DNA from: a virus | IMG/VR virus record: IMGVR_UViG_3300042861_001289 | Coordinates: 1 to 30,855 of that record | DNA length: 30,855 nucleotides | Direction: 5' to 3' (one strand) | Shown: piece by piece, positions 3,356 through 28,310 of the stretch | Position numbering within the stretch: the stretch's first letter is position 1 | How the letters are laid out: each line of letters opens with the position of its first letter | Program-made: the position numbers and the translations under genes | The notes under the pieces: model-generated | The model's database searches: none | Told to the model about the DNA's origin: nothing | The model's input: only the letters and a program-made list of their open reading frames with translations

Positions 3356-3358
3356 ATT

Positions 3359-3505: not shown

Positions 3506-3519
3506 AAGAAGTGTAAATT

Positions 3520-4687: not shown

Positions 4688-5557
4688 ATGAGTACTTTAA
4701 TAGAAAAAGTAACTAGAAAATCAATGATTATAAGAGAATCTTTTAGATCAACAGATTTTATTAGTCCTTCTTTTGGATATGGTTGTTTAGGTTTTAATTG
4801 TTCTTATTGCTATATGAAAAGACATAAACCAATTGGTCTTTCTGTAGCTAAAAATACAGGAGATATTCTTACAGCTATTAACAACCATTCATATTTTACA
4901 AATGTAAATAAACCTAATCAAACACATGGTAAATATACAACTTATGACATTTCTTGCAATGAAGATTTTTCTTTACATTTAAAATATCATGAATGGGAAA
5001 GAATATTTGATTTTTTTAAACAGCATCCTATAGCTATGGGATCATTTGCTACTAAATATGTAAATGTAAATTTATTAGATTATAATCCTGAAGGTAAAAT
5101 TAGAATTAGATTTAGCCTAATGCCTCAAGCCATGTCTGATAAATTAGAACCTAATACTTCTAAAATTATTGATAGAATTAAAGCTATTGATGCTTTTATA
5201 GATGCTGGTTATGATGTGCATATTAATTTTAGCCCTGTAATAGTTGCCGGTAATTGGTTAGAAGAGTACAAAGATTTATTTACAATGGTTAATGAGTATG
5301 TTGATTATAAAGATGTAGTTAAAGCAGAAGTTATATTTCTTACTCACAATGAAGGTAGGCATAAATACAATTTAGATAATGATATTCAAGGTGAAGAAGA
5401 ATATTTATGGGTTCCTACAATACAAGAAGATAAAATATCTCAATATGGAGGTAAAAACATAAGATATAGACGTAATTTAAAGAGCGGGTTTATAGATTCT
5501 TTTACAAAACTACACGATAGTATAATACCTTGGAATACAATAAGGTATATATTTTAA
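4688..5557 (+). CDS. Spore photoproduct lyase-like radical SAM protein
   Basis: 289 aa. The iron-sulfur site lies near the N-terminus: SFGYGCLGFNCSYCYMKRH puts cysteines at 33, 38 and 41. Downstream regions follow the order seen in spore photoproduct lyase (SplB) relatives: YDISCNEDFSLH, an FATKYVNVNLL strand, KIRIRFSLMP, a helix RIKAIDAFIDAGYDVHI, then SPVIVAGNWLEEYKDLF. SplB uses S-adenosylmethionine to repair UV thymine photoproducts. In this phage the substrate is unknown; DNA-lesion repair or base modification are both possible. The cysteine spacing is CX4CX2C instead of the usual CX3CX2C. It is shorter than B. subtilis SplB (about 340 aa), mostly at the N-terminus. It is the only obvious redox enzyme in the block. 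Confidence 0.75.
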   Translation: MSTLIEKVTRKSMIIRESFRSTDFISPSFGYGCLGFNCSYCYMKRHKPIGLSVAKNTGDILTAINNHSYFTNVNKPNQTHGKYTTYDISCNEDFSLHLKYHEWERIFDFFKQHPIAMGSFATKYVNVNLLDYNPEGKIRIRFSLMPQAMSDKLEPNTSKIIDRIKAIDAFIDAGYDVHINFSPVIVAGNWLEEYKDLFTMVNEYVDYKDVVKAEVIFLTHNEGRHKYNLDNDIQGEEEYLWVPTIQEDKISQYGGKNIRYRRNLKSGFIDSFTKLHDSIIPWNTIRYIF

Positions 5558-7005: not shown

Positions 7006-7031
7006 AAAAAAGGGGCCTTTGCCCCTTTTTT
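7006..7031. terminator. Symmetrical bidirectional intrinsic terminator
   Basis: Six A, then GGGGC, loop CTTT, then GCCCC and a run of T. The GC stem is 7012-7016 with 7021-7025, extended by A/T pairs. Both strands therefore show a GC-rich hairpin followed by a U-tract. It lies between two converging genes, the + operon ending at 7002 and the - strand giant gene ending at 7031. The T-run even includes the start of the opposing stop codon. Confidence 0.9.
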
Positions 7032-13000: not shown

Positions 13001-13186
13001 ATACACTTGATTAGCTAACTCAGGGTTAGAATCAAATAGTTCTTTTACTCCTGGTTTAACAGGCATAGGAGCCTCATTAAGTAGTTCTTTATTTGCTTGA
13101 TACCAAGCAGAATAAGCACCAGTTTCTCCAAATTGAGAAACTAATGCTTTATATTCTTTAGATGATTTATTAGGGCAAAAGCTCAT
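7031..13186 (-). CDS. Giant multidomain virion-type protein: zincin, P-loop, PD-(D/E)XK nuclease (2051 aa)
   Basis: 2051 aa. Domains in order: an N-terminal motif CPNKSSKEYKALVSQFGE..AY..W..N, which I recall from the starts of other large phage proteins. Next a zincin with HELIH (185-189) and probable third ligand E332. Then a P-loop kinase-like domain (GHPTIGKS, 446-453; LDDDY). Then a second zincin-like domain with a degenerate EEFLH (760-764). Then a RecB-type nuclease (H1001, D1090, D1104-x-K1106). The long C-terminal part is mostly helical, with a hydrophobic stretch (FTIAMSALGYLLGSLAF) followed by DDDDED. It starts 2 bases after the 4361-aa gene ends, so they are co-expressed. By comparison with crAss-like phage cargo proteins it is probably packaged and ejected (inference). 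The nuclease could act on host or incoming DNA together with the helicase of the neighbouring giant. Confidence 0.85.
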   Translation of the reverse strand: MSFCPNKSSKEYKALVSQFGETGAYSAWYQANKELLNEAPMPVKPGVKELFDSNPELANQVYEALGFDKQINEIADTRKVNEFIKKYKEALPNIKDGKTLISHLQTVSNRNTGTTKQFADLIIKLSKSNKGLEKLLNNPNLYARPNGVGDTGAFHWSIFSNLSPNKIVLELDMFKNNTYDDVFLHELIHNLTTQFIVKDSDLFNQDFYNKVKSLYDVFDKHLEENKKIDKPLIQILSKELEKYKRLKEYFQALPEDAIKIELSFNKVGVVSIIKEVRLNFKEYDGLSKEDVLNKLDGIIKFREDTLKEREKGDKDYYYFNSSSFKGDTVLSEFLATFMNDANFREQLKNIDYKNNKSIFQSIIDLISEFIGLTKNDSLYNEFVSNLTSFINNNDYSAIADQTQKTAYQNRIDLLEQQKQQALQLYSQYLDSTQSQVILPTDKIVFGHPTIGKSFLKNQGENKFISLDDDYATEINNKVKEIADKYNVTTYQVKDGGTQSWNNEYNQMMQEMFNVAKQRAISENKTLFTSNTNLLRNNTKSFDKVINLTDKEFERRIQERGAKYDAKEWKSQINEAISKLPANKVINTDKYLSDLFLGSKQDIEGFKEFSKKPTEPIIPSVEQASTLLAGRMFNIQDKVFNSYDKELADIEKRFPPFYGQSEATLSKIVKAINSTYKYVKASIVAGARLDIKLEEVRSGTLINQDVLNKLQKLFPKTKLKFISSTEAIALVGDIARKSPTFILNDTVHIIDDRITDETLIEEFLHPFIQYTYTNNRELFDNLYEDAKNDKELLKTIVERYSSFTVLDKKKEMVTQKLAELLHNNYLTEEPNTIPGIKTQLGKLFRDVLSFFNKWLGGNTLEVESLPSTMDLGQLANLLNTTGLDLPVEYLAAPTFNLMDDIKDQVLVGGYKLLDETYQDKGNVKYERLTEWIRSKISTIGNKNMVDWAKTVAQKQFNLQESTIVDGVPKIKLPDGIFMSMEELTKKIAIEFETSKAYGTLAHLLIERAIKNLMGEDTKGLDAKIEIICQGSDTQNPIDIDNLDWIGKNIKQILAMANINIADSRFSPEERDKVLSELPYILESLGVGTTIDGAIFHSDGTISIKDWKTGRLLSDQFTSVMLGEFGTQLEDIHDSKLDRAKLEVALRALMIKYKNPTATFRQLSIEHLNKNTLLSTYDINLESYLNLLKDHFKKNDPKLYEEFNSKGLFDARNYDIRISEDYNKSFQEKEESIADIDKQIKSVNNQMNTEVREDRKSALRYKLTQLVNKRTELENTITGSLVGDTTDVSWFKRHFGNLSSVSNSLVVTFKRLLDKAKAEYNDEYKAIEKKHDVIIEKLLKEHGAKKGNLFLSYHNKENTGLFDFMWVEKDKGVNKGYYRVTEGDAKYAKLTAIQKEYLEFYSTTLEKLYFEVANEVVSKDVFGNPMTNAQFNKQPATLPKDFMARVYLSREEYFNKENLPLTTLMKDWNYLQFKNKFIKSEFYAENAHEVIPFKHMGSDAIIGSQMHTFNAEIGFKQMTQNLLKKKHLDKMQAIGNGLSISLREKGYENTADFLNDRILIEIMDVKKKTKFSKKGFNITKKGSKQEIDLDNLLDSLKNFVTAGTMWLKPFAGLRNGVYTIMTNHKNATIKSISKRIGIPEDDLDFTEGDMLKADALWAETRADIMKSALTGERNDNKLLLLLKEYNYLPDAYDYKVQAAAIKSKKNKMLTTDHLYFFHSVFEDWGTGTIFTALLLHNKNKKTGKSLLDSYEVKDGKLEWVGGLRGKRTDGSEIRGITYEELNKFKKASSAIHGNYRQDERAAIELYAWGRLAMQFKRFVPQQMMNLGQSAQSSEAYGNFVELIDPVTGKPKLDKDGESIYSWKPQVIEGKYRLLFNQLLLLTRFGAGNYKWDKLSSRQKEDLVSAYFTIAMSALGYLLGSLAFDDDDEDKWLAVSYKKILKDLSEGGNPFDMMENFQYQSVAGYKVFKLSKALVEFFYSVGTGEKNKYGDYKSSNEIAKVIPPFSTIYDIDKALNRTQSGKNVGLDFTELPNILDAELDEFTVNLNTDWTEGK
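9677..10309 (-). other. Domain: RecB-like PD-(D/E)XK nuclease of the 2051-aa protein
   Basis: AYGTLAHLLIERAI gives H1001. GTTIDGAIF gives D1090. SIKDWKTGR gives D1104-x-K1106. This is the order and spacing of RecB/Cas4-type nucleases. No four-cysteine iron-sulfur cluster is visible, so Cas4 is less likely. Confidence 0.75.
10547..10984 (-). other. Domain: degenerate zincin-like region of the 2051-aa protein
   Basis: The sequence LIEEFLHPF places E760 where the first His of HExxH is expected (EEFLH, 760-764). It is followed by KEMVTQKLAELL and a tail RDVLSFFNKWLGG. The order matches the two intact zincins of this operon, so it is probably an inactive or altered copy. Confidence 0.5.
11387..11884 (-). 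other. Domain: P-loop kinase-like region of the 2051-aa protein
   Basis: KIVFGHPTIGKSFL is a strand plus Walker A loop (446-453). FISLDDDY follows about 15 residues later. LFTSNTNLL and the arginine-rich FERRIQERG resemble the later strand and lid of small nucleotide kinases. The substrate is unknown. It could be nucleotide or protein phosphorylation. Confidence 0.55.
12047..12739 (-). other. Domain: zincin metalloprotease 1 of the 2051-aa protein
   Basis: HELIH at residues 185-189 is preceded by an edge strand (NKIVLELDMF) and followed about 140 residues later by LSEFLATFM with E332, a plausible third zinc ligand as in gluzincins. A tail SIIDLISEFIGL ends the module. Boundaries are estimates. 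It probably acts in maturation of virion polyproteins (inference). Confidence 0.7.
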
Positions 13187-13187
13187 A

Positions 13188-16100
13188 TTAACATTTGTTT
13201 TTTATTTTATGCATTGCTTCTTCATGGATTACACCTGATTTTATCAAATTTTGATAGGCTTCAGAGTTCATAATTTCAGCATCACTCATTATACTATTTA
13301 CAAAAGTACTACTTTCTACTGTATATTCATATAGTCCTTTTGTATTAGGAGTTTCACTAGCTGTTCCTATAGTTACTTCTACTAATTTTAATCTAGTATC
13401 ATCTGAGTAGTTAACAAGCCTTACTTTCTGGCCTGGTACAAATACTTTTCTACTTTGAAAATTATTTGCTTGAATATCAGATGTTTTTACAACAGGAGTA
13501 TCTAAACTAAATGCTTTTTGTATACTGTATGTACCTCTTAATAAATTAGAATCATATTGATATGAAGGGAAAGTTTTAATTTTACCTACTAAAGCATAAG
13601 TTAATTGTTCGTCTAAAGGATTAGATAACAATACATAAAGTTTAGAGTTACCTTTAAATCCAGTTTTTACAAACAATGCCCCTAGTTTATTAGGTTCATT
13701 TTTTAAAGTAAGAACACCATTTTCTTCAGTTTTTTCTGCATCTTTTTTAACATATTGTACAGTAGTTTCTCCAGTATTTAATGCATATTGCACTTTAAAG
13801 TTAGCGGCTATATTATCTAATAGCTCTTTAAATTTAGTAGGGTTACCTGTTAATTCTTCAAAATAAGTATTAAACTCTTTCATCATAGGTCTGTAAATTT
13901 CTGATGGTAAAAGTAAAGAAAAATTAGTTATACCAAAAGACATACCTTGATTAACTATAGCATATTTTACAAAATCATATTGTAATTTAGTAAAGCCTTC
14001 AGTACCTTTTAAAGCCTCAAATTGCATTTGGAAATTTAATAAATCTGCTTGATTTGCATTTCTAGCAGCAGTAAATACTAATTTACGGTATTTATTAAAT
14101 GACACATTTTTTAAAAACACATTGCCAGGGTTAGCTTTTTTAAGGGCTTTTACTTCTTGTTCAAATCTAACATTAAATGCATCTACACCATATCTTTTTT
14201 TACCTTCTGAATCAGTATGCTCTTCTTCAGCTAAAGTACTATTGTCTATAACATATCCTTCAGGAGTAGTAAAAGATAATCCGGTCATTAAGTAATGAAT
14301 AACAGCTTCTCTAATGTTATAAGTAGTATTATTAATACCTTTACCTTTAAGAAAATCTGTTGCTACTTTAGCAGTTTCATCTTCTCCTATAACTTCAGTT
14401 TCCATTAATCTTTTTGAAAATTCTTGTAAAACTTTATTATTAACAAATAATAGGTTTTCCATATTACTTTTTAAAGTTTGTAATAATTTAAACGCTTTGT
14501 TTATATGCGGAAGATGAGTAACGTCTACATTTGTAAATACAAAATCATTAGATTTTAAAGCATCAAAATCTTCTAAATTATCTTGCATTGCAGGAAAATC
14601 TACAGGAAAACTTTTAAGCACTTTATATGCGCTACTTCCTTGAGAAATACTTTCTCCAATAGAATTAGCTTTATTCATATAATATTTAATTATAGCAGCT
14701 TGAGTTACAAGTTCATTTATATCCATTTCACTTATTTCTTTATTGTGTAAAGAAGTAATATCTGGAGATTCATTTTCTTCTACCAAATCTTCAAATTGCT
14801 CTACAGTTAAACTTTTAAGATTTTCTAACCTTTGGTATATAGCTTTTCTAGCATTTGCTTTACCGTTTTTATAGACATTTTCTGAACTAATAATCTTAAC
14901 AACCGGTTGTTGCATTAAAAGAACAATGTCTTTTAAAGGAACTCCCATAGAAACTAAAGCTACAGTTGCACCTCCAGTACTATTACTAACTCCTATTATA
15001 GGAAGAATCTGCTCTTTTACACTATCAATAGCCGCATTTATTAAAGAATCTATTGTTTCTGTAATACTAGGTTTAGAAAGAACAGGATTACCGTCTTTAT
15101 TATAAGCTACTGTAATTTCTTTTGTGTTTTCAAAATAATTTAAACCGTCATAAGTATTGCCGCCTATTTTAATATGGTAACTATCTTTAAGCTTAGGGTA
15201 TTTAACTTCTTGTTTATTATACTCTTCTGCTAATTTATTTATTTTTTCAAGTTGTTTTGTTATAAGAGCAATTGCTTTTTCTGCAGTGTATTCTTTTTTA
15301 TTTAACATTACAATATCTGTAGGATTTTTAAGAGAAAAAACTTCAAGTGCGCTTTTAAGATCATCTATAGTTTTAATATAAGGGTTAACTGTAGATTGGA
15401 AGTAATAAGCTACAGCTTTAGCCATACTTGCAAAAATACCTGTTAAACTAGTACTACTAAAGTTATCTTTATGCATAAGCATTTGATCTTCAATATTATA
15501 CAAATCTCTATTAGGGAAGATTACTTTATTTCTATTTTCAATCCAATTTTCTACAGCTTCTTCATATTGATCTCTAGTTGTAAAATCAGCATAATTAGGT
15601 TTCTTTTCATCAAAACCATTAAGCCTAGCTACTGTATCAAATGCAGATTCTTCACCAATACCCATTCCTTTAAATCTCTCCATAGTAATAGGAGACATCA
15701 TTAGTTCTTCATTTACTTTATCAGTAGTAATTTTTAAGAAACTTTCTACTACTACATTTTTATAATGAGATACTTTTAAATCAGATAATAAATCAAGGTG
15801 TTTACGTAAAGCAGTTACTCTTTCTTTATCTCCTTGTTTTTTAGCTAATTGTATAGCAACGCGGCTAGCTTCAAAATCTTCTTGTACTGCATTAAGAAAC
15901 TCTTCACTTGTAGGAGTAATAGTACCACCTTTATATAATTCTTTGCCTCCTATAGTTAAAATAGATTTATTAGAAGAAAATTCTTCTCTTCTCATTACGT
16001 ATAACTTATCTACGTCATAATCGGAACCGTGGAAATATACAATTTCTTTAGGTGCAATAATTGCGTTTTTATTACCAGGATAAAATCCTACTACTTTTAA

Positions 16101-19100
16101 AGGTACAGCAGAGTGAAGTTCAGTTGAAGGTATACGGAAACCTACCATTGTATCAAACATAATAGTATCTCCTTCTTTAAACTTACCTTTCCACATATCA
16201 GGTAAAACTACTTCAGAATAACCATCTTTATCTCTCCATAAAAGATCGCGTTTAATTAAATTACCATCTTTGTCTGTAAATTCAGCAGTACCATAAGCAG
16301 ATTGTAATACTAAACCTGCCCCAGGAATTCTTATACCTACAGTAGCTTTAGTAAAAAGAGAAGCTATATCAATAACTATTTTTTTAACTAAAAAAGGAGT
16401 ATTTATACCTAATTGAGGATCATTAATAAACTGTTGTTGTCTATCACTTACTCCTTGAGATTTCTTTTCAGCTGCAGCAGCTCTTAACTTTTCACGTTGT
16501 TCTTTTTGTGTTTGTTTACGAGACTCTTCTTCAATTCTATCTTTTATACCTAATTTTTGTAATAGCTTTCTACCTCCAAGATTCATTAACTCAGTTTGAG
16601 CATTAAATAATCTTGCAGCTTCTACAGTGTTATTACCACTAAAATCAACAAAATAATTTAACTGATTAGGTAAGGCTACTTCTTTACCTTCTACAGATTT
16701 CTCAGGATTTTCTTGTATTCTATAGTTACTATTTTGTAACGTCAAAACAGAATCTTCATCTATTGTATAAGTATTACCTATTAAGCTACCTATACTGCCA
16801 TCAGCATTAGGCTTCATAATATTAGAAGGTTTTCCAACTTTAACAGCAGATTCAAATACCATTTCATCAATGTTGTTTTCTTCTAAAGCTTGTCTAACTT
16901 GTTTAAGTTTAGGAAACATGTCACATAACTCATCAGTTAATTCTATAGAAGAATACTTTACAGCTCTAGGTATACCTTTTTCATCTATTTCAAAATGTAC
17001 TGGTTTAAGTATTGATCCTAATTTAAATGCATTACCAAATCCTCTACGAACTTCAGCAGCACGTTTAGGAGTCATATAACCCTGAGCATCTGTTAAATCA
17101 AATTTACTACCCCATATTTTTTGGAATTTTACAAAGTCTTCTCCTAAAACTGATTTTATATCTTTAACTACTAAAGACCTGTATGTTTCAGGTAACGCAA
17201 AACTAGAAACTAATCCACTGTAACCAGTAGCAAAAGCAATAGACATACGCTTAATAACATCAAATGATCCTTTATAAAATGCTTGGTCTCCGGCAACTAA
17301 ATGATTTAATTGATGAGAGTTAACATAAAAGTTAGCAAAATATAAAGCAGCTAAATCTTCTTCACTTTCTGCATATGTTGAAACAGCAGTTTTTAGCTTT
17401 GCTAAATCTACATTGTTTTTTAAATCAAATACAGTAGTAAGGCTAGAACCTTTTGCTTTCATAGCTTCAACTATTTGTTTAGCATATTCTAAATCTGTTT
17501 GATTTTCTTTTCTAGGAGAAAGCGCGTCAAAAATATTTAAGTTATTATCTACTTTTACTTTTGTAAAAGCTCTATTGTTTTGCTGATCAAGAATAGATAA
17601 AATGCTTTTTTCTACATCATTCCATTTTAAAAAGTTTATTTCTGCAGCAACAATATTAGGTTTATTAGAAATAGTAAGAAACTGTTGAACGTATCTACCT
17701 TTTCCTATTTCATCAATAGTGCTAGCTAAAAAGAAATATTTAAAATTCCTTGCAAACCAATCTTTTTCTGTTTCACTACTATATCTTACATTGTAATCAT
17801 TATATGAAGATCTTACAGCATCAAAGTTTACATATTTATGTATTGTATTTATTCCGTTTACAAAAGTATTTCTAAGATAATTAGGAGAATTTAAAAATTT
17901 AGGTTTTTTATGTCTATCAGTAAAATATTGTAAAATATTAATAGCTGAAGAAGAAGAAGAAAATAAATAAGCAATTTTTTTATCTGACCTTCTATAACTC
18001 GCAGGCCTAGCTCTATCTTCTAAGTTAATTAGATTTTTAGATATACTATTTACCCAACCAGTTGTATTTTCAGTAAATATAACTTCTAAATCCTCATTAG
18101 GTTTACCGTCTTTAGTAAATTGGTTTTCTTTATAAGTTTTAATTATATTTTCTACAGCCGATATAAAAGAACCATAATCAAATTTAGATGCTTCAATTTG
18201 TATATCTTCATTAAAAAGCTTTGTGTATATTTCTTTAACTGTTTGAATAGAAACAGGACTGAATTTTTTCTGTCTTTCTTTCTTTAAAATAGCTAATTTA
18301 CCTCCAATCCATTTCATTGCAGGCATGCCTTCTATTTCTCCTTTAATTCTAGTAAAGAAAATATCTCTAATATTATTATTATATGTAGCTAACTGATCTT
18401 CTACAACAGCATTTTTAAATGTATGTGTTTGATTTGCAGCTGCTCCAGAATATTCTCCATAATATACATCTTGTTTATATAATGAAGCTACTTGAGCATA
18501 AAGTTCAGTAAATGTATTTTGAGCATCATTTACAATATATATTGCAGAAATCTCATTTAAATTTAAACCTGTTTTTTCTGATATGTTTTTAAAATATTTA
18601 CTAGTAGATTGTTTACCTCTATGTAAATATTTACCGTCAAGTCCTTTAAAAGTATTTTCATTAATAAATGAATAGCCTGCAGGAATTCTGGTTCTATTCA
18701 TTACCCCAGTATTGTAAGCATTTTCAATTAATTTATTAAGAGAAGTTTGAATAGCTTCAAAATCTTCACTTTTATAAGTAGAGTTTTTAAATCTTTCTTC
18801 TATTTCTGCTAATAGTTTTTGTTTTGTCTCAGTATCTATATTAGATAAAGTTTCTAAACAAGCTAAATAAGCAAACCTAGGGTTAATTTGTACAAGGCCT
18901 CCATTTTTTTTACCAATTATTGTAGATAAAAACTGTTTTACTTTGGCCGAAAGTTTAGCTTCATGATTAGTCTGTTCTGCATCTTTAGAAGAATCGCTCC
19001 AATCTCCTGCTAATATTTCTTGAGAGTCTTCATTTACATTATCTTCTGAGAATGTAACTTCTTCAAACATATCCGCAATAAGCTTAGAGTATATATCTTT

Positions 19101-22100
19101 ATTTTTTAATCTAGTAAGTAACTCTAACTCTTGTTTGTCTTCTACAGATAATGTTTCATTTTTTGCAATAAGTTCTTTTTGTTTTGCAAGTAATTCAGAA
19201 TGCTCTTTTACAATAGAATTAAATATAGAAGTAAATTTCTCACTAGAAGATTTAGGAAAATATCCGTTATCTACTAAAGTTTGGCCTTTTTTATCTACTT
19301 GTAATAATTTTTCATTAAATAATTGTATTTCATTTAATTTTTCAATTATAATTACTTCAGAGTTTTTAAAATTAACTGCATTACCAAAATCTTTTTTAAT
19401 ATCATCGTAGTTTCTAGTAACACCATCAAAACTTACTATTTCTGTAAACTGTCCTGATTCAATATTTTCAAAGAAAGTATTCATATCAGGGGCTAAAGAA
19501 GACGCCATTCCTAAGAATTTCTTTATTTTATTAAACAAGATATTGAAAAAAGAAGATACTTTGCTACCGTTTCTCCATTCCTGGTATTGTTGAGCTATTG
19601 CTTCTTCTATAGTAACAATATCTGAATTAGGATCTAAATTAAATTCTTGTATAGCTTTTTGTCTTACTAATTCCTGTTGTGCAGGAGTAAGCATCATGTT
19701 AAATATTCTATGAAATAGCTCATGTCGAGCTACATTTTCATATGATTTACCAAACTCATCTTTATTTAAATAAATAATACCGTCTCTAAATAATCCCCAA
19801 GTTTCTGAACCTTCAGATATTTTTAAAAGTTCTGCCGCTGTTACAAATTTTACCTCTTCTGCAGTTAACGTTTTATCTATAGACTGTAAGTATTTTAAAA
19901 TATCAGCAGTGCTTTTTTGCGCTCCTAAAGTTCTATTTACAGTTTTTAATAAAAACCTAGTTAACCTAGTTCTAGTAGGAGGCATAGAATTATCTTTATC
20001 TTCTTCTTCTTCTATAAACGGATCAATGCTATCTTCTTGTGCAGATATCTTTACCGTGGTAGGAATAACTTCTTCAAGTTTATCTAAGAATAACATGTTA
20101 TCTATATCTGAATTACCAATGTATCCATCAGTGTAATCAAAAATTCTACCTTCTAAAATATTACTTTCTAATAAAACCGGATCTAATTGAGAGTTTCTTA
20201 TAATAGGTACTCTTAAATCAGAAATGTTTCCATTTTGGTCTGTAGTAAAAATACTAGCAAGTTCTTCTAAAGACATAGAACCTTTATTAAGAGGATCACT
20301 AAACTCCATTTTAGGAAGTAAAGATTTACCTGAAGTAAAACTATTTCTAGCAGTTTTAACATCTACTCTAATTGGGTAACCATTTGCAAGTTCATTTCCT
20401 TTTGCTATTAAATTAAAAGCAACTTGTGCTTTACCTGGTCTTCTATTACCTGTAACTTTAAGATCATCAATAGAAACTTCCATAACTTCATTTCCAAATT
20501 TTACTTTGGCTATTCCATTATCTATAGATTTTACTTCTCCTGATATTTCTTTACCGTTAACCATTACCGGGTCTTTAGCATTTTTTACTTTTGTTCTTAC
20601 AGCAATAGTAGGGTCTAAAGGTTGGTGTAATAAAAGATCAATGTCCTTTATAAGTTCTATTTGATTGTTAGTTAAAATTATATCTTTACCTGTCTCATTT
20701 TTAATTTTTTCTAATAATGTAGGCAAATATCCACCTTCTTCACCTCTAGTAGAAATAATATCAGATAGCTCTTTAACACTAACGCCTAATTCATTTTTTA
20801 AAGTATTATACTTTTCTACAAATGACATTATTGGAGCCATTAAGAAAGAATGCTCAGTAATATTTAAAGGTTTTCTTTCTAAAGCAATAAATTGAGTGTT
20901 TGCTGTATTAGAAGAACCTTGAACTGGATTTTCTATAACTAAATAAGGAAGGCCTGCTTCTAATATTTTATCTGTATTTAATGCTTTGATTTCATTATTA
21001 TTAAATACTCTAATCTTAACATTTTTAGCATCAAATTTTTTACCTAAGTTAAAAGCTTTTTTAAATTTATCTAAAACATTAGACATGTTAAATTGTTTAA
21101 ACTCAGCAGGTATTTTGCTATACACATATTTTAGTGTGCTTACAGATTCAATTTGCCCATAGCCTAAAACAATTAAATCGCTACTATTAGGTATAGTAAA
21201 ATATCCGGTAACAGCATCTTTTACAAATGATGTAGTAACCATATTTGGATCTAAAGCTTCTTTAAACTTTTTAAATAGTTCTTTTTGTTTTGGACCAGGA
21301 TTATCAAGTTGATTTTGACTTAAAACACCTACCTGTAAATATTTATCTTCTCTTTGTACATAAATACCTATAGATGCATATCCTTGGCTATTTATAATAG
21401 GAACATATATAATTCCTTCACCTGCTAAAATCTTTTCAGTTTTTTTCTTACCTAAAAATGATGAATTTGTAGGATAGTCTAAATTAAATGCATCAGGAGA
21501 AGGTGTATGCTCAGTAGGAACATCAGGTTCTTCTCCAGGAAGATCTCCGCCTTCTGGAGGATTAGGAGGATTATCAGAATCATCATCGTCTATAGGAGGA
21601 TTAGGAGGATTGCCAGGAGGTGGCGGAGGAGTAGGTGTAACAGGAGGAGTAACAGGAGGAGTTGGAGTAACAGGTTTAGGTGCTACATATTCCTCATCTA
21701 ATTGTGTTAACTCGTCTTGTCTATCTTTTAAAAACTTATCGTTTGCTTCTTTTATAGAAGCTGCATTTTTAGCTGTATCTTCAGATATTACATCATCAAT
21801 TACAGTAGTAACTTTTATTCCTTGAAAATAAATAAAGTTAGTTGCTCTAGAAGCAGCAGTATACATAGCTTTATTGTACATAAAATCTTCTTGAAAAGAA
21901 GTTCTAGGTAAATCAATAAATACTTCATCAATAGTTCTACCTTGTACATCTATATAAGATACTACTTCTACGCCTAGGTTTTTAGCTTCCCATGCAGCTA
22001 CATCATTAGGATGAACTACAATAGCTCTAGTTTTACCGTCTTTTAAATCTCTTTGTTTTAAAGATTCTTCTATACCATTAGTAGCTAATGAACCATCGGC

Positions 22101-25100
22101 TCCTAGTGATCTGTCTAGGTTAGTGCTTAAATAAACTCCATCTTTTATAACATCTTTAGTTTTACCTAAGAATATATCTTGCGCTTCAACTACTGCTCTT
22201 ACATTACTTCTATATCTAATAGTTAAAGGAGTAATAAGAGTCATTTTTTTATTTTCTTCAGATAGTGAATCTAAAGGAGAAAAAGTAGCATTTTGGCTTT
22301 TAGTTATCTGGTTAGGATCACCTAAAGCTACTATTTTTATTTCTGTATTATTTTTTTTATTGTACTCATTAAGTAAATCTACTATCTCTTCTATCTCTTT
22401 GTAACTTAATGCATTTATCTCATCAATTACAATTAATTTTATTCCAGGAAGACTAGTTTTTAAAGCGTCTTTAAGTTCACTTATACTTCTTTGTTTGTTA
22501 GTACCAATTGAATCATTGATGGCTTTACTTGAATGCTCGTTATGCCCAGTTGCAAATATCTCTTCAGTTTTAAGACCTGATAATCTAGAAAACCATTTTA
22601 ATACAATATTAGTTTTACCTGTTCCTGCATATCCTTTAAGATAGGCTAACCCGCTAAATCCGCTATTTGGTTTTTTAGTAAAAAAGAATCTAACTAAATC
22701 ACGTATAGCTAATAATTGTTGATTTGTAGGAGTTATAAGGTTTTTAGTTAAAGCAATAGCATTTTCAGTAACAACTTCAGTAACAATGTTTTGAGTTGAA
22801 TTTATAAAATCTAAAGTATTTTGTATGCCTATTACTTGTTTATGTAAATCTAATATCTCATCAATAACTGAAAGATCTACAAGATTTTCAAAATCATTAT
22901 TTTTAAGAGATTGTCTAAGGTTATTTACAGAGAAGTCTTTAGCAAAATCATTAATTAAATCAGTATCCTTGCTTTTATTTCTGAATAAAAAAGGAAGAAG
23001 CCCTTTAAAAACAAGAACAGGGTTTTTATTATAATTTTTCTTTATAAATGCTCTAGATGATCCGCTTTTTTTATTAGTATCTACTAATTCTAATACTCTT
23101 GTAGTAAGAGTTTTCTTTATTTCTTCTAATTGAGCAATTTGATCTTTAGAGATATTCTTTTTTACAGTAAGTAAATGGTTAGTCAAATAACCAATTTTGC
23201 CCCAAGCAGATAAATCTTTTATACCTGAAAGTATTTTATCTAACTCGTCTCCTAAAATATCTTTATAGAAATCATAAAGCGCTTTATTTATAGTATTTCC
23301 AGCTTCATCTAAACCAAACTGGTTTAAATTAGTTTCTACAGCATTGTTAATAATTTTTTCTTGTTGAAGAGCTTTATCTGCTACACGTTTTTTTACAACT
23401 TCAATAGCTGCTACAGTCTCGTCTAATAAAGTTTTATATTCTTTTATAACATCAGCATAATCATTATCCTTTTTTTCTTCTAATACTTTTACCATATTAG
23501 TTAAAGCCTTTTGTTGCTTTTCTAATTCAGCAAGGTTATCGTACTCTTCACTAGAGTTAAAGTTAAAAAGGTTACTTCTAACAGCATTAGTTATAAATGA
23601 TAACAATTGCTCTTTAGTGCTTTTAGTTGTTACAGGTACACTGTTTTGAGTTTTTAAATTATTAAGATCTTCTTTAGCTTTAGCTATTTTAGCTTGTTCT
23701 TCTAATATATAATCATCAGTAGCGTATTCTCCTGCTTCATCTAATAATGCTAGTTCTTCAACTTTAGCTATAACATCCGGATTTGTAGTAGTGTAATCCT
23801 CTCCAGTAGCAAACTGACCTGCAGCTTCTGCAAATTCTATAAGCGCTGCTTCTTTAGCGTCTAGTTCTTTTTGTAAAGATTCTCTACTTTTATCAGAAAT
23901 AGCTACGTCATCTTCTAATAAATCATTTAATACATCAATAGCATCTTCTGGTTCTTCACCATATAATCTATCTTCAATACCTTTTTCAATGAATTCATTT
24001 TCAATGTTTTGCCCCTTTAAATTTAAATTCTCTTTGTATAATCTAGTTTTTTCAAAAGCGTTAAACTCATCTAATGTAGTAATCTCTGGTACAATTGTAT
24101 TAGTTTTATCTAAGATAGATTTTTTAAATTCATTTTTAAAATACTTTTCTCCTGTAACAGGATTAGCTATTTTTTGAAATTCTTCTGTAAATTTAGATTC
24201 TGCTTCAGTTAACTCGTTTAGTTTTAAATCTATATAAGCTAATCTTTTTGCTCCTAATGCTGCAGATTCTGGAGTAGATTCTATTTGTGCTTTTTCAATA
24301 GATAGTCTATTTCTTTCACTTTTAACATTAGATAAAGTTGTACCTATATTATATAGTTCTTCTTTTCTTTTTAAAAATGATTTAGCCCCGGTTTCACTAT
24401 TATCTTTAGTAATTAAACTGCTATCTATACTATTAGCTAATTTTGAAAACTCGGCAGTTCTAGTTTTTAATTCTGAAATAAGAGCACCTTTTTCAGCTGG
24501 GTTAAGACCCATTTCTAAGTATTCTTTATCAGATAAATTTTCTAAGAAAGATATTTTTTCTTCTATTAAATCTTCTGTACCTGTGTTATAATGGCTTTTT
24601 ACCCAATTAGCTATTGCTTGACCTTTAGCTAAATTTGCTAATACATCATTACCATTACTTTCAGCAAGAGTAGCAATATCATCTAAGTACTCTAATTGGT
24701 CTTTACCCATAGCTAAAGCATCTACTTTAGCTTGATCTATAATAGGACGGCCATCAACATCTAATTTATATCTAGATTTTGTAACCGGTTTACCTTCAGC
24801 ATCGTTCTCAGTATAATCTTCTTTTTCAAACAAATCATTTGCTTGATATAGATTAAGATTTGCTAACATAGATTCAGTTACTGCTTTTCTTTGTTTCTTT
24901 TTATTTCTATTACTGTCTATAAGACCACCTCTAGCATTAGCTACGCCTCCTATAATTGCACCTAAGAACATAGATTTTTTACCTTCTTCTGTTCTAAAGT
25001 TATCAGACATATTATTAGCTATATCAGAATAAGTATTTAAATCAAATAATGATGAAGTAGGATTTCTTTTAAATAAATCTGAAATAGCTAGCTGAACGTT

Positions 25101-26273
25101 TTCTTCCCATAGTCCTTCACTTGCTACTCCAATTGCAGCAGATTTAAGCGCTGAACCAGCAAGAGTATTACCAAATTTATTAAACCCTTTAACAGTAGCG
25201 CCTAAATACGGAACTTTACCAACATCTATACCTGCAGATTTAATAAGTCCGCCAAAAAGTTCACCTTTAAGCATTTTACTAGAAGCTCCTTCTACAGTAG
25301 TATTTAACCCTTGACTTGTTAATCCTTTAACACCGGTATTTATTCTACCCGCAGTCTTCATTAAAGACTTCATTTGAATAAGATTAGGTATAGCTAATGC
25401 CATTGAATTAAGAGCAAATGTTTTAGCCGCACCTTCAGCAGCAACTTTATTTACAGCTAGCTTTTGTTCTGCATTTAATTGGTCAAAAGGAACACCGTAT
25501 TCTTCATTTGCTTTTTGCTCTCTTATAGCATCACGTACTTCTTTACCTTCAAACATAGCTTCAGAAGCAGTGTTGACTGCAGTAGCGGTAAGTAAATTAG
25601 TTGCGGCAGCAAGTTTAGCTAACTTAGTTCCTTTTGTTAAACCGGCTTTAGCTAATCCCAAAGCGGCATTTTCTCCTAGTTTTAAACCTGCAGTACTTGC
25701 TCCGGTTAAATAAGCAGATAGTAAAAAGGCACCTGCATCTACAGCATCGCCAGCCCAGAAATCGCCGTCTTTTAAATTATTAAAAAAATTAGATTTGTTA
25801 GCAGCCTTGTCTTCTAAACTATTATATAAAGGAGTAACGTCTTCTAAATCTTTTTCTAAATCCATAGCAGCTACAGCTAACCCATTATCAGCTGCCCCGG
25901 CAATCCAAGCGTTTATATCTTGGCCTATAGTAGAGTTATCTCCTTTATAATCTTCATTACGATTATCTATTCCAAATAATCCTCCTAAAAATCCAGCACT
26001 TGCTGCTGTTTTAGTAAGAGTTTTACCTGCTAACCTGGCTCCTGCAATACCAAGTGTTTCCCAAACACCTTGATTTCTACTTCTTCTTTCTTCTACATTT
26101 TCAGAAGGATTAGTTCCAATATCATAATTAGACCATTCAGTATTAGATGTTTGTGGACCAGATAAACTTTGAAAATTAAATGAATTTCCTGCAACTTTAT
26201 CTTTATTTAAATATTCTTGATATGAAGCCTCATTTAAGTAGGCGTTAAGATCTTCTTTTAATTTTTTTGACAT
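13188..26273 (-). CDS. Giant 4361-aa virion RNA polymerase polyprotein with SF1 helicase and zincin
   Basis: 4361 aa in one frame. Residues about 50-450 hold Ala/Gly-rich hydrophobic stretches (AGARLAGKTLTKTAASAGF, DAGAFLLSAYLTGAS) like membrane-active ejection proteins. About 450-1180 is charged and coiled-coil rich. About 1205-1490 is a complete SF1B helicase. About 1530-1592 is a proline-rich linker with acidic patches. HELFH at 2184-2188 marks a zincin. From roughly 2500 to the end lies an RNA polymerase core whose second double-psi barrel has GFRIPS (R3380) and GSDYDVDK (D3418, D3420, D3422). In crAss-like phages this polymerase is carried in the virion and transcribes early genes. The ATG follows eight A after the preceding stop. 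The protein may be cut by the zincin (inference). The combination is the key feature of the window. Confidence 0.88.
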   Translation of the reverse strand: MSKKLKEDLNAYLNEASYQEYLNKDKVAGNSFNFQSLSGPQTSNTEWSNYDIGTNPSENVEERRSRNQGVWETLGIAGARLAGKTLTKTAASAGFLGGLFGIDNRNEDYKGDNSTIGQDINAWIAGAADNGLAVAAMDLEKDLEDVTPLYNSLEDKAANKSNFFNNLKDGDFWAGDAVDAGAFLLSAYLTGASTAGLKLGENAALGLAKAGLTKGTKLAKLAAATNLLTATAVNTASEAMFEGKEVRDAIREQKANEEYGVPFDQLNAEQKLAVNKVAAEGAAKTFALNSMALAIPNLIQMKSLMKTAGRINTGVKGLTSQGLNTTVEGASSKMLKGELFGGLIKSAGIDVGKVPYLGATVKGFNKFGNTLAGSALKSAAIGVASEGLWEENVQLAISDLFKRNPTSSLFDLNTYSDIANNMSDNFRTEEGKKSMFLGAIIGGVANARGGLIDSNRNKKKQRKAVTESMLANLNLYQANDLFEKEDYTENDAEGKPVTKSRYKLDVDGRPIIDQAKVDALAMGKDQLEYLDDIATLAESNGNDVLANLAKGQAIANWVKSHYNTGTEDLIEEKISFLENLSDKEYLEMGLNPAEKGALISELKTRTAEFSKLANSIDSSLITKDNSETGAKSFLKRKEELYNIGTTLSNVKSERNRLSIEKAQIESTPESAALGAKRLAYIDLKLNELTEAESKFTEEFQKIANPVTGEKYFKNEFKKSILDKTNTIVPEITTLDEFNAFEKTRLYKENLNLKGQNIENEFIEKGIEDRLYGEEPEDAIDVLNDLLEDDVAISDKSRESLQKELDAKEAALIEFAEAAGQFATGEDYTTTNPDVIAKVEELALLDEAGEYATDDYILEEQAKIAKAKEDLNNLKTQNSVPVTTKSTKEQLLSFITNAVRSNLFNFNSSEEYDNLAELEKQQKALTNMVKVLEEKKDNDYADVIKEYKTLLDETVAAIEVVKKRVADKALQQEKIINNAVETNLNQFGLDEAGNTINKALYDFYKDILGDELDKILSGIKDLSAWGKIGYLTNHLLTVKKNISKDQIAQLEEIKKTLTTRVLELVDTNKKSGSSRAFIKKNYNKNPVLVFKGLLPFLFRNKSKDTDLINDFAKDFSVNNLRQSLKNNDFENLVDLSVIDEILDLHKQVIGIQNTLDFINSTQNIVTEVVTENAIALTKNLITPTNQQLLAIRDLVRFFFTKKPNSGFSGLAYLKGYAGTGKTNIVLKWFSRLSGLKTEEIFATGHNEHSSKAINDSIGTNKQRSISELKDALKTSLPGIKLIVIDEINALSYKEIEEIVDLLNEYNKKNNTEIKIVALGDPNQITKSQNATFSPLDSLSEENKKMTLITPLTIRYRSNVRAVVEAQDIFLGKTKDVIKDGVYLSTNLDRSLGADGSLATNGIEESLKQRDLKDGKTRAIVVHPNDVAAWEAKNLGVEVVSYIDVQGRTIDEVFIDLPRTSFQEDFMYNKAMYTAASRATNFIYFQGIKVTTVIDDVISEDTAKNAASIKEANDKFLKDRQDELTQLDEEYVAPKPVTPTPPVTPPVTPTPPPPPGNPPNPPIDDDDSDNPPNPPEGGDLPGEEPDVPTEHTPSPDAFNLDYPTNSSFLGKKKTEKILAGEGIIYVPIINSQGYASIGIYVQREDKYLQVGVLSQNQLDNPGPKQKELFKKFKEALDPNMVTTSFVKDAVTGYFTIPNSSDLIVLGYGQIESVSTLKYVYSKIPAEFKQFNMSNVLDKFKKAFNLGKKFDAKNVKIRVFNNNEIKALNTDKILEAGLPYLVIENPVQGSSNTANTQFIALERKPLNITEHSFLMAPIMSFVEKYNTLKNELGVSVKELSDIISTRGEEGGYLPTLLEKIKNETGKDIILTNNQIELIKDIDLLLHQPLDPTIAVRTKVKNAKDPVMVNGKEISGEVKSIDNGIAKVKFGNEVMEVSIDDLKVTGNRRPGKAQVAFNLIAKGNELANGYPIRVDVKTARNSFTSGKSLLPKMEFSDPLNKGSMSLEELASIFTTDQNGNISDLRVPIIRNSQLDPVLLESNILEGRIFDYTDGYIGNSDIDNMLFLDKLEEVIPTTVKISAQEDSIDPFIEEEEDKDNSMPPTRTRLTRFLLKTVNRTLGAQKSTADILKYLQSIDKTLTAEEVKFVTAAELLKISEGSETWGLFRDGIIYLNKDEFGKSYENVARHELFHRIFNMMLTPAQQELVRQKAIQEFNLDPNSDIVTIEEAIAQQYQEWRNGSKVSSFFNILFNKIKKFLGMASSLAPDMNTFFENIESGQFTEIVSFDGVTRNYDDIKKDFGNAVNFKNSEVIIIEKLNEIQLFNEKLLQVDKKGQTLVDNGYFPKSSSEKFTSIFNSIVKEHSELLAKQKELIAKNETLSVEDKQELELLTRLKNKDIYSKLIADMFEEVTFSEDNVNEDSQEILAGDWSDSSKDAEQTNHEAKLSAKVKQFLSTIIGKKNGGLVQINPRFAYLACLETLSNIDTETKQKLLAEIEERFKNSTYKSEDFEAIQTSLNKLIENAYNTGVMNRTRIPAGYSFINENTFKGLDGKYLHRGKQSTSKYFKNISEKTGLNLNEISAIYIVNDAQNTFTELYAQVASLYKQDVYYGEYSGAAANQTHTFKNAVVEDQLATYNNNIRDIFFTRIKGEIEGMPAMKWIGGKLAILKKERQKKFSPVSIQTVKEIYTKLFNEDIQIEASKFDYGSFISAVENIIKTYKENQFTKDGKPNEDLEVIFTENTTGWVNSISKNLINLEDRARPASYRRSDKKIAYLFSSSSSAINILQYFTDRHKKPKFLNSPNYLRNTFVNGINTIHKYVNFDAVRSSYNDYNVRYSSETEKDWFARNFKYFFLASTIDEIGKGRYVQQFLTISNKPNIVAAEINFLKWNDVEKSILSILDQQNNRAFTKVKVDNNLNIFDALSPRKENQTDLEYAKQIVEAMKAKGSSLTTVFDLKNNVDLAKLKTAVSTYAESEEDLAALYFANFYVNSHQLNHLVAGDQAFYKGSFDVIKRMSIAFATGYSGLVSSFALPETYRSLVVKDIKSVLGEDFVKFQKIWGSKFDLTDAQGYMTPKRAAEVRRGFGNAFKLGSILKPVHFEIDEKGIPRAVKYSSIELTDELCDMFPKLKQVRQALEENNIDEMVFESAVKVGKPSNIMKPNADGSIGSLIGNTYTIDEDSVLTLQNSNYRIQENPEKSVEGKEVALPNQLNYFVDFSGNNTVEAARLFNAQTELMNLGGRKLLQKLGIKDRIEEESRKQTQKEQREKLRAAAAEKKSQGVSDRQQQFINDPQLGINTPFLVKKIVIDIASLFTKATVGIRIPGAGLVLQSAYGTAEFTDKDGNLIKRDLLWRDKDGYSEVVLPDMWKGKFKEGDTIMFDTMVGFRIPSTELHSAVPLKVVGFYPGNKNAIIAPKEIVYFHGSDYDVDKLYVMRREEFSSNKSILTIGGKELYKGGTITPTSEEFLNAVQEDFEASRVAIQLAKKQGDKERVTALRKHLDLLSDLKVSHYKNVVVESFLKITTDKVNEELMMSPITMERFKGMGIGEESAFDTVARLNGFDEKKPNYADFTTRDQYEEAVENWIENRNKVIFPNRDLYNIEDQMLMHKDNFSSTSLTGIFASMAKAVAYYFQSTVNPYIKTIDDLKSALEVFSLKNPTDIVMLNKKEYTAEKAIALITKQLEKINKLAEEYNKQEVKYPKLKDSYHIKIGGNTYDGLNYFENTKEITVAYNKDGNPVLSKPSITETIDSLINAAIDSVKEQILPIIGVSNSTGGATVALVSMGVPLKDIVLLMQQPVVKIISSENVYKNGKANARKAIYQRLENLKSLTVEQFEDLVEENESPDITSLHNKEISEMDINELVTQAAIIKYYMNKANSIGESISQGSSAYKVLKSFPVDFPAMQDNLEDFDALKSNDFVFTNVDVTHLPHINKAFKLLQTLKSNMENLLFVNNKVLQEFSKRLMETEVIGEDETAKVATDFLKGKGINNTTYNIREAVIHYLMTGLSFTTPEGYVIDNSTLAEEEHTDSEGKKRYGVDAFNVRFEQEVKALKKANPGNVFLKNVSFNKYRKLVFTAARNANQADLLNFQMQFEALKGTEGFTKLQYDFVKYAIVNQGMSFGITNFSLLLPSEIYRPMMKEFNTYFEELTGNPTKFKELLDNIAANFKVQYALNTGETTVQYVKKDAEKTEENGVLTLKNEPNKLGALFVKTGFKGNSKLYVLLSNPLDEQLTYALVGKIKTFPSYQYDSNLLRGTYSIQKAFSLDTPVVKTSDIQANNFQSRKVFVPGQKVRLVNYSDDTRLKLVEVTIGTASETPNTKGLYEYTVESSTFVNSIMSDAEIMNSEAYQNLIKSGVIHEEAMHKIKNKC
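15924..16766 (-). other. Domain: two-barrel RNA polymerase active centre of the 4361-aa protein
   Basis: First barrel: NYRIQENPE (Q3187) followed by VALPNQL, comparable with the RIQ.E.P...GTQ pattern I recall from related phage polymerases. Second barrel: GFRIPS (R3380), PLKVVGFYP, then YFHGSDYDVDKLYVM with D3418-x-D3420-x-D3422, the magnesium-binding triad. The order and a gap of about 230 residues suit the single-chain crAss-type/YonO-type RNA polymerases. Confidence 0.85.
19404..19826 (-). other. Domain: zincin metalloprotease of the 4361-aa protein
   Basis: ARHELFHRIFNMM carries HExxH at 2184-2188. TIEEAIAQQYQEW carries E2223/E2224 as possible third ligand. The segment NILFNKIKKFLGM closes the module. 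It sits between the helicase and the polymerase, a natural place for an activity that separates them (inference). Confidence 0.78.
21500..21690 (-). other. Proline-rich linker of the 4361-aa protein
   Basis: About 60 residues (1530-1592) of repeated PTPP, PPVTP, NPPNPP and PPEGG units with a DDDD patch. It separates the helicase from the protease/polymerase half. The DNA is correspondingly repetitive (reads aggagg/gtaacaggagga on the + strand). Such segments usually act as flexible, extended tethers and might hold a cleavage site (inference). Confidence 0.85.
21804..22661 (-). other. Domain: SF1B (RecD/Dda/Pif1-like) helicase of the 4361-aa protein
   Basis: Motif I GYAGTGKT (1214-1221), motif II LIVIDEINAL (D1284, E1285), motif III ALGDPNQI (about 1315), motif V VQGRTIDEVFIDL (about 1442-1454) and motif VI MYTAASRATN (about 1470-1479) are all present and in order. 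The G-x-AGTGKT and LGDPNQ forms are typical of RecD, Dda and Pif1, which move 5'-3'. The set looks catalytically intact. Confidence 0.88.
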
Positions 26274-26279
26274 TTTTTT

Positions 26280-28310
26280 TTATTTTGTTTTTCCTTGTGC
26301 TAATTCCCAAACTCTAAATTTAAATTCATCTTTTGTCATTTTTTTACCGTCTAATGTAACATACTTATCAGTTGTACTTATTGTTTTTATTATAGGTTTA
26401 TTATTTGCATCTGTTCCCCACATTATTTTTTCTTCAGGATTCCAACCGGTTAAATATTGAGAATAATTAGCAATAATTGCATTAGGTGTATTTTGATGCT
26501 CTTGACCAGGATTTGCCATAATAACCTGTCTTCCATTTACATTAATTACAACACCGTCTCCAAAATATTGAGCACCTCCATTTTCTTGAGCATATTCATT
26601 TTTATTGTTAGCCATTTGTAAAGTTGATGGATCAGGATGTCCTACAATTTCTGTATGTAATGATTGTCCAGAACTTAAATTATTTTGCTCCTTTTTAAAG
26701 AAATCAGCAGCTGGAATAATATGTCCAGTTAAAGGATCTAAAATATTATAATTTTGAGCAGTACCTAATACAAGAGGTTTATCTTTTTCAACAGTTAATC
26801 CATTTTTATCTCCAAAATATTTTTGATCTAATGCTTGTTTAGCTTTTTCTGTATCATATTGTCCACCTGTTTTTACTTCATCTCCATATTCTCTTTCAAT
26901 AGTATTTTTAAAGTTAGGATCAGAAGTAGAAACATAACTAAAATTAGAAGTCATAGGAATATTTTCATTTTGCATTAAGTTATTAACAATAGACATTTCA
27001 GCTGAATTTAAAGTTTCTCCTTTTTTTAATTTCATAATTGCCTGTATTGGAGTTACATAGTCTTCTTTTTTTAGATTTATTCCTAAAGGATTTTTAGATA
27101 AATCTAAATTAGGATCGGAAAGAGAATTATACAATTTTGGATTTGTTTTTTTAATTTTGTCCATGTTTTCAATTAAATTAGACGCAAAACTATATAACAT
27201 TGTTTTGTTATTTTTACTATTTTGAAATTTAACGGCTGATTCATTATTACTAAAAGCCCCTGCTTCTCTAGCTTTTTGTGCAAAAGAGCTAACAGAAGAT
27301 TTAATGGCACTTGGAATATTAGAAGAAGGTATAGGATCAAATTCTCCAAATGGAAGTTTTTCATTGTTATTACCATTTCCGGCATTAAAATAACCTGTTG
27401 CTTGAAGATTAATACCTTGATCACTACTAGATATATCAGAACTATGTGCATATTTAGCAATAGCAGGTTGAACAGCTTTTTCTATAACATTATTATATGC
27501 TTGATTTTGAGCTTCTTGTTTACTCATACCAAGTTTATTTTCATAATAATCTTCTACACCATTTAAATAAGCAGCAACTTCAGGACTTCCTTTAGCATAA
27601 CCTTCAACAACTTTTCTAACTCTATCAGGAGTTACAACAGATCTTTGTCTTCCAGAAGCCACATCATATACAGTTATTCCAGGAGCAACTTGACCATTAG
27701 GTAATGTTTCACCTTTTTGAAATACTTTTTCTCCTTTAGTTGTATTACCTACAATATCAGCTATTATTCCTTGTCCAAATTGATCAGTAAATTTAGCCAT
27801 ATCTACATCTTTATATAAACTAGGAGCAACTACTCCCACGTTTTCTAAAACTCCTGATTCAGGATTAAACATTGTTTTAGATTGAGATTGTAACCATTTA
27901 TTTTTTTCATAAGCTCGTCTATTAACATCTGTAATTCCAGATTTAGTGTCAATATCTTCAGCATATTTCATTAATTCTTTATTCCTATTAGCCAACCCTT
28001 CATACAATCCAGCAGCATCCATAGCATCTTGTTGTGTTTGCCATTTCATATTTTGGTAATCTCCAGCTTCAGTTCTTTCTTTCATTTTATTACCATAAAA
28101 TTCCATTATTTTATTAGCTGTTTCTCTATCAGCAGCATTGCTAGAAGATGCTAGCTTTTTAGTTAAAGCCATTGTTTTAGTTTCTGTGTCTTTAGCAGCA
28201 TCGTATCTTCCTTGAAGAATATCGCCTGTTTTTTCCATAGCAGCTAATGGAACTTCTTTTCCTATAATATCTATTTTAGGAGAACTATACAGTTGTGTAT
28301 TAAAATCCAT
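26280..28310 (-). CDS. Putative virion protein, first gene of the giant-protein operon (676 aa)
   Basis: 676 aa with no enzyme motif that I recognise. The start MDFNTQLYSSPKIDIIGKEV leads into a long charged helical part (about 20-200), rich in Lys, Glu, Gln and Met, which could form a coiled coil. The rest is Asn/Gly/Ser-rich (for example SSSDQGINLQATGYFNAGNGNNN), as in many tail or internal virion proteins. No signal peptide or membrane segment is visible. The gene lies 6 bases upstream of the 4361-aa gene and just downstream of a promoter-like box, so it is probably made together with the giants. By gene order in crAss-like phages it may be a capsid cargo or tail-hub-associated protein (inference). 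Confidence 0.7.
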   Translation of the reverse strand: MDFNTQLYSSPKIDIIGKEVPLAAMEKTGDILQGRYDAAKDTETKTMALTKKLASSSNAADRETANKIMEFYGNKMKERTEAGDYQNMKWQTQQDAMDAAGLYEGLANRNKELMKYAEDIDTKSGITDVNRRAYEKNKWLQSQSKTMFNPESGVLENVGVVAPSLYKDVDMAKFTDQFGQGIIADIVGNTTKGEKVFQKGETLPNGQVAPGITVYDVASGRQRSVVTPDRVRKVVEGYAKGSPEVAAYLNGVEDYYENKLGMSKQEAQNQAYNNVIEKAVQPAIAKYAHSSDISSSDQGINLQATGYFNAGNGNNNEKLPFGEFDPIPSSNIPSAIKSSVSSFAQKAREAGAFSNNESAVKFQNSKNNKTMLYSFASNLIENMDKIKKTNPKLYNSLSDPNLDLSKNPLGINLKKEDYVTPIQAIMKLKKGETLNSAEMSIVNNLMQNENIPMTSNFSYVSTSDPNFKNTIEREYGDEVKTGGQYDTEKAKQALDQKYFGDKNGLTVEKDKPLVLGTAQNYNILDPLTGHIIPAADFFKKEQNNLSSGQSLHTEIVGHPDPSTLQMANNKNEYAQENGGAQYFGDGVVINVNGRQVIMANPGQEHQNTPNAIIANYSQYLTGWNPEEKIMWGTDANNKPIIKTISTTDKYVTLDGKKMTKDEFKFRVWELAQGKTK

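Follow-up and report, generated by a model that had tools for sequence, protein, structure and literature searches.

How an injected polymerase reaches the template strand in native double-stranded DNA is an open problem; the giant vRNAP of phage N4 shows no in vitro activity on native duplex DNA (PMC10925440). The locus analyzed here raises the question of whether a virion polymerase can carry its own DNA motor within the same chain, and what such a motor would do. The window, meaning the whole stretch of DNA analyzed, is an IMG/VR virus record of 30,855 bases. The original prediction read one of its genes as an unbroken frame holding a complete RecD/Dda-like helicase, a zincin, and a two-barrel RNA polymerase, and suggested that DNA entry or unwinding is thereby tied to early transcription. 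We find that the encoded chain is a crAss-like giant virion polymerase with a distinct, compact SF1 motor on its N-terminal side. The chain makes it testable whether such a motor opens or reels in DNA for early transcription, and the helicase domain is small enough for stand-alone expression and assay.

One intact frame encodes the whole chain

The gene runs from 26273 to 13188 on the minus strand, a placement that the original prediction had left unstated, and its intact frame encodes 4,361 aa from an ATG start to a TAA stop. It belongs to a run of four long minus-strand genes (at least 789 aa, 676 aa, 4,361 aa, and 2,051 aa) that converges with a plus-strand block encoding a DNA polymerase and a glucosaminidase. 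All motifs were located at the positions previously claimed for them. The chain and its neighbors comprise the following features.

28385..30754, minus: second upstream gene of the same block, conserved in the clade
26280..28310, minus: 676-aa upstream gene of the same block, conserved in the clade
13188..26273, minus: gene for the 4,361-aa giant multidomain virion RNA polymerase chain; intact relatives L011, L012, L013, and L168
23994..26156, minus: N-terminal region homologous to phi14:2 virion protein gp67, aa 40-760 (blastp, tblastn, jackhmmer)
21711..22814, minus: compact SF1 helicase/translocase domain (“W-type”), aa 1154-1521 (Pfam, PDB profile, tree)
22611..22634, minus: helicase motif I (Walker A), GYAGTGKT, aa 1214-1221
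22413..22430, minus: helicase motif II, VIDEIN, aa 1282-1287
22308..22328, minus: helicase motif III, ALGDPNQ, aa 1316-1322
21912..21947, minus: helicase motif V, VQGRTIDEVFID (VQGRTIDEV from 1443), aa 1443-1454
21843..21863, minus: helicase motif VI, YTAASRA, aa 1471-1477
21504..21674, minus: proline-rich acidic linker from the helicase to the next region, aa ~1534-1590 (from sequence)
20019..21476, minus: “mid” region, aa 1600-2085, kept along with the helicase by most W-type chains, those of the split genes in G030 and L165 among them
19284..19991, minus: zincin-like domain, aa 2095-2330 (HELFH at 2184-2188; conserved E2224 and A2227)
15354..17396, minus: two-barrel RNA polymerase core, aa 2960-3640 (6VR4 by profile and structure)
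16008..16022, minus: catalytic DYDVD (DxDxD), aa 3418-3422, within GSDYDVDK from 3416
13191..15356, minus: C-terminal region, aa 3640-4361, homologous to the C-terminal part of gp66
7031..13186, minus: next gene, for a 2,051-aa gp65-type RNAP-associated protein starting MSFCPNKSS

The same fused frame and domain order recur in no fewer than five further IMG/VR contigs (L011, L012, L013, L168, and L169), whose helicase regions show 29-57% identity. By jackhmmer, the window, L011, L012, and L013 share the order gp67-like region, coil, helicase, mid, zincin, pre-polymerase, polymerase, and C-terminus, while in L168 (4,864 aa) and L169 a single frame encodes the helicase, then the zincin, then the polymerase. 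The alignment by blastp spans the whole chain at 44-46% identity. Although homologues do occur as split genes (G030 and L165), the chance that a misassembly or frameshift joined separate genes is vanishingly small, because five further contigs of moderate identity keep the fused frame and order. The unbroken frame first proposed is thus real, and the survey for the same domain order in crAss-like genomes found it again in other IMG/VR contigs. An initial viral scan using a poorly conserved stretch had found no relatives.

The polymerase is of the crAss-like virion type

A tblastn search with aa 2900-3900 matched 81 phage records, the named ones nearly all crAss-like; phi14:2 gp66 was among the matches (E=3e-6). 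Against the PDB, a profile of the clade matched a single entry, 6VR4 (phi14:2 gp66), at E=5.9e-23 over both barrel regions (chain residues 870-1415). An AlphaFold model of aa 2960-3640, built on a 52-sequence alignment, reached a pLDDT of 83.5 and a pTM of 0.82, and Foldseek placed it closest to 6VR4 (E=3.1e-22), with phage P32/P74 and cellular two-barrel polymerases next. All three aspartates of DxDxD, together with K3145 and R3380, show no variation among the 52 sequences. The partners of the transcription block are also present, as the gp67-like N-terminus and the gp65-type next gene. The polymerase part (aa ~2960-3640) is therefore almost certainly a crAss-like virion RNA polymerase. Both the two-barrel fold, which structure prediction was to recover, and the kinship with the phi14:2 enzyme had been anticipated, and both were confirmed.

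The window itself is a 30.9-kb fragment lacking crAss-type terminase, portal, and capsid genes. In the record of one relative, L014, the terminase matches that of phi14:2 over 97% (E=8e-86); matches to portal and capsid families were seen in relatives.

We count phi14:2 gp66, grouped with the gp47/gp49/gp50 cargo of crAss001, among the closest known systems. Crassvirus RNAP cargo has been found in virions by mass spectrometry (PMC10172136). Like the window chain, gp66 is a two-barrel single-chain polymerase with DxDxD, and the gp67-gp66-gp65 gene block is shared, with homologous N-terminal (gp67) and C-terminal parts. In phi14:2, however, these are separate proteins of 1,797 and 2,180 aa, Pfam finds no helicase in either, and gp66 is without HExxH.

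A PHROGs search with the four big window proteins gave no useful match, and general Pfam scans of the chain found no conflict-type domains (polyvalent-protein set). Polymerase and gp67 homology account for the chain better than a polyvalent-protein reading does.

The chain joins neighboring virion genes

The N-terminus belongs to the gp67 family: aa 59-719 match phi14:2 gp67 by blastp (E=1e-22), and the homology is also found by tblastn (E=2e-8) and jackhmmer. In phi14:2, gp67, gp66, and gp65 are adjacent genes, and gp65 to gp68 were identified as virion proteins by MS/MS. The chain thus joins two neighboring virion genes, one gp67-like and one gp66-like.

Relatives show this block in several other arrangements. 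G030 and L165 divide the modules of the chain between two adjacent genes at the mid-zincin junction: the first stops with TAA after the mid region, and the second restarts at an ATG (MSCVNINS...) before the zincin. In L052, the gp67-like, zincin, and polymerase parts are fused without the helicase. In L014 (record G004, 55185-73289), a 6,035-aa chain results if TGA is read as Trp, and the gp65-type protein is also fused. Four in-frame TGA codons occur in this chain, one of them at a Trp position of the window (DFWAGD). This suggests that TGA encodes Trp in L014 and that the gp67, helicase, polymerase, and gp65 parts form one predicted chain. An L014 chain without the gp67 part was considered and rejected, as the break is due to the in-frame TGA codons. 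Fused, split, and extended chains among relatives indicate that fusion and fission are common in the gp67-gp66-gp65 block. Polymerase genes of up to about 6,000 aa have already been mentioned in a review (PMC10136315).

Separately, we observed the polymerase fused to the gp65-type protein in two loci of other lineages (L113 and L098).

The helicase is a compact SF1 enzyme on its own branch

Pfam identifies an SF1 helicase at aa 1209-1482 (Viral_helicase1 over the whole domain, E=6e-8; AAA_30 over the N-half, E=4e-7), and among PDB entries its profile matches PIF1, RecD, and Dda. Motifs I, II, III, V, and VI are intact, as first described, and the motif and catalytic residues are invariant in the clade. 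The description as a complete RecD/Dda-like enzyme did not hold: the motifs are complete, but the accessory-domain insertions of Dda and RecD2 appear to be missing, and the domain falls elsewhere in the helicase tree.

Motif spacing and the tree both speak against a Dda/RecD2-type helicase. Motifs III and VI are 153 aa apart in the window and 152-197 aa across window-type (W-type) helicases, vs 264-311 aa in the Dda-like set where scorable and about 286-311 aa in its clearly scored members; ~130 residues are missing relative to Dda-like enzymes. Motifs I and II are separated by 70 aa in the window and 70-76 aa across the W-type, vs 83-102 aa in Dda-like members with a clear motif II and 83-95 aa in the clearly scored ones; several automatic motif II assignments were unreliable. 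W-type helicases form their own branch (100/100 support, with long branches as a caveat), to which neither the stand-alone nor the C-side crAss helicases belong. Judged from sequence, the domain is a genuine SF1 helicase of a separate branch rather than a Dda/RecD-like one, and its spacing suggests a shortened 1B pin region and no 2B (SH3) insertion.

RecD2 separates strands with a pin located in domain 1B; a mutant without the pin hydrolyzes ATP but fails to unwind (PMC8469786). Given this role of the pin and the short spacing, duplex unwinding by the W-type domain cannot be assumed. From the spacing, we would expect a translocase, with unwinding only where a wedge is provided from elsewhere in the chain.

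W-type helicases were found in nine other virus records, in all of which they lie beside this polymerase where the flanks allow a check. A single pattern-based, non-exhaustive scan of cellular genomes (~85,000 species) returned no W-type relative, and one plasmid gave a weak match.

Helicases appear to have been tethered to this polymerase more than once

The novelty originally claimed for the exact domain set stands only in part, as helicase-polymerase fusions already exist in two RefSeq genomes of the Suoliviridae. The cr50_1 protein (L005 2947-17271; 4,774 aa) is named “DNA helicase”, and that of cr118_1 (L006 2794-17634; 4,946 aa) is named “exonuclease V”; several public crAss-like polymerases are thus hidden under such names. 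As in the window, each combines a zincin motif, a crAss polymerase, and an SF1 helicase in one giant chain. Their helicase, however, is Dda-like, full-sized, and C-terminal, while that of the window is compact, of another SF1 type, and on the N-terminal side of the polymerase, where it had been predicted to lie. Further C-side helicases occur in L135, L136, L114, and L138. G047 (L137) resembles the window in having an SF1 helicase N-terminal to a crAss polymerase, in one 3,401-aa frame, but the helicase is Dda-like and the polymerase falls in another RNAP clade. The zincin motif is common ahead of this polymerase, with or without a helicase.

In the polymerase tree, whose sample was picked with a degenerate DxDxD pattern, the W-type loci, G030 among them, group in a single clade (SH-aLRT 99); the C-side helicases are spread over two distant clades, and yet another holds G047. 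Because helicase-bearing polymerases occupy distinct RNAP clades, the sequences suggest about four separate tetherings, a count that takes as true negatives those chains in which a PF13604 scan of possibly incomplete records found no helicase. By the same scan, most sampled crAss-like polymerases have no in-chain helicase detected. A single in-chain helicase shared across crAss-like phages is disfavored by the different helicase branch and the mostly opposite chain end, although a single clade of N-side and C-side helicases is compatible with the data in an AU test (p=0.30).

What is new here is the W-type helicase, its N-side placement, and the recurrent tethering in about four polymerase lineages. 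In the literature covered, we found no paper on a crAss polymerase-helicase fusion; a helicase in this block may nonetheless figure among the domains drawn in PMC7886860 (Fig. 3). Recurrent tethering of different SF1 branches to either chain end amounts to a natural experiment on template opening.

The motor may serve the polymerase on entering DNA

The gp67-type protein, SF1 motor, and gp66-type polymerase form one chain in the window and two adjacent genes in some relatives. By analogy with phi14:2 and crAss001 (PMC10172136), the chain would be packed in the capsid and then injected, passing through the tail in a partly unfolded state. The gp67-like N-terminus would probably serve packaging or ejection. 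The compact SF1 domain would probably translocate on DNA beside the polymerase, feeding it or opening the incoming duplex, whereupon the polymerase could begin early transcription and assist in drawing in the genome. Tethering would ensure that motor and polymerase arrive together, 1:1, on the same DNA. Taken as a whole, this account of a fused, packed, and injected chain whose motor serves the polymerase has, in our judgment, about an even chance of being right. A motor role on entering DNA, for or with the polymerase, is a tentative assignment that falls somewhat short of that.

The proposed coupling of DNA entry or opening to early transcription stays plausible. The giant vRNAPs of N4 and DEV (Schitoviridae), which serve here as analogues, are injected, and the N4-like vRNAP has been proposed to pull the genome in (PMC10925440). 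P23-45 gp96 (PMC10770324) is likewise a giant virion protein with a two-barrel RNAP and a metallopeptidase region; it differs from the window chain in being a tape measure fusion of a different RNAP lineage, and the part of that study covered here reports no helicase. Repeated tethering of helicases at either chain end points to a useful coupling, and a motor acting on entering DNA would fit the template-opening problem known from the N4 vRNAP (PMC10925440). Nonetheless, most sampled crAss-like polymerases lack an in-chain helicase, so that the coupling is not generally required, and the short motif spacing means that strand separation may be absent.

A bolder version, in which the W-type domain represents a class of compact SF1 motors confined to phages, so far known only from chains or loci with the crAss-like virion polymerase, and is co-injected with that enzyme as its ATP-driven DNA feeder, is speculative and somewhat unlikely. 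If true, the virion would carry a ready-made polymerase-translocase.

Alternatively, the helicase might be co-delivered cargo with a separate job, such as early replication, recombination, or linear-end protection, and be fused for delivery only. Giant injected proteins often gather unrelated enzymes. Intestiviridae and Crevaviridae encode a Dda-like SF1 helicase in a gene of its own, and the C-side fusions bear this same type. The W-type helicase, in contrast, tracks its polymerase, with its loci forming one RNAP clade (99) and one helicase clade (100/100). Its position beside the polymerase is constant throughout the clade, and in split forms it lies in the directly preceding gene. Separate lineages also appear to have tethered helicases to this enzyme independently. 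We therefore consider fusion for delivery alone unlikely.

It is improbable that the SF1 domain acts on RNA or an RNA-DNA hybrid, in transcript release or R-loop clearing, instead of on duplex DNA. The best full-domain Pfam match is Viral_helicase1, the core of SF1 RNA-virus helicases, and motifs III and VI lie about half as far apart as in Dda; the PDB profile matches, however, are the DNA helicases PIF1, RecD, and Dda, and compactness alone does not fix the substrate.

The zincin-like domain is conserved and is not tied to fusion

Most of 26 families carry a conserved HExxH..EExxA ahead of this polymerase. The window chain has HELFH with E2224 as third ligand and A2227, and the modeled core has a pLDDT over 90 (local confidence). 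A Foldseek search of this model against the PDB gave no match below E=0.8, so the zincin assignment rests on motif and conservation. The zincin first proposed therefore stands as a conserved motif between helicase and polymerase, and falls short in having no PDB fold match.

We also noted that HEVFE or HEAFE replaces HExxH in L027, L096, L028, and L017, the second motif histidine being lost in one lineage. With HEVFE in several lineages, zincin activity is not universally kept.

A zincin directly after the junction at which relatives have two genes could mean that the chain is a polyprotein, cut by this or another protease at assembly or after ejection into gp67-helicase and gp66-type subunits. 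Yet chains beginning at this junction (G030 and L165) have the zincin too, as does the helicase-less fusion L052, and some lineages have lost a ligand. The domain is thus not tied to the fusion, and cleavage of this kind is improbable.

Chain starts carry a short signature

An N-terminal M-x(1-3)-C occurs in all 19 stand-alone gp66-type proteins and in 34 of 36 gp65-type proteins (53/55 together), is absent from 17/17 long fused chains, and is present in 24/173 other ORFs, many of them apparently truncated gp65-type proteins; Fisher values overstate this association, as the pattern was noticed post hoc and the sequences are related. It takes forms such as MSC, MAC, and MSFCPNKSS, and its carriers include the 2,051-aa protein of the window (P0002, window 13100-13186), L007, L008, L009, L139, and L165. 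From its sequence distribution, it looks like a candidate packaging or processing signal that was lost upon fusion behind a gp67-type N-terminus. We found no report of this signature in the literature.

Other features of the window

The gp65-type protein P0002 contains an insert of ~570 aa (window 11342-13100; aa ~35-608) that is absent from close relatives. It includes HELIH (aa 185) and a P-loop-like GHPTIGKS (aa 446), and part of it matches the L048 polymerase chain. On the plus strand, the window encodes a 96-aa protein with a C-terminal DnaJ domain (824-1114; PF00226, E=8e-7) and a spore photoproduct lyase-like radical SAM protein (4688-5557; PF20903, E=2e-22).
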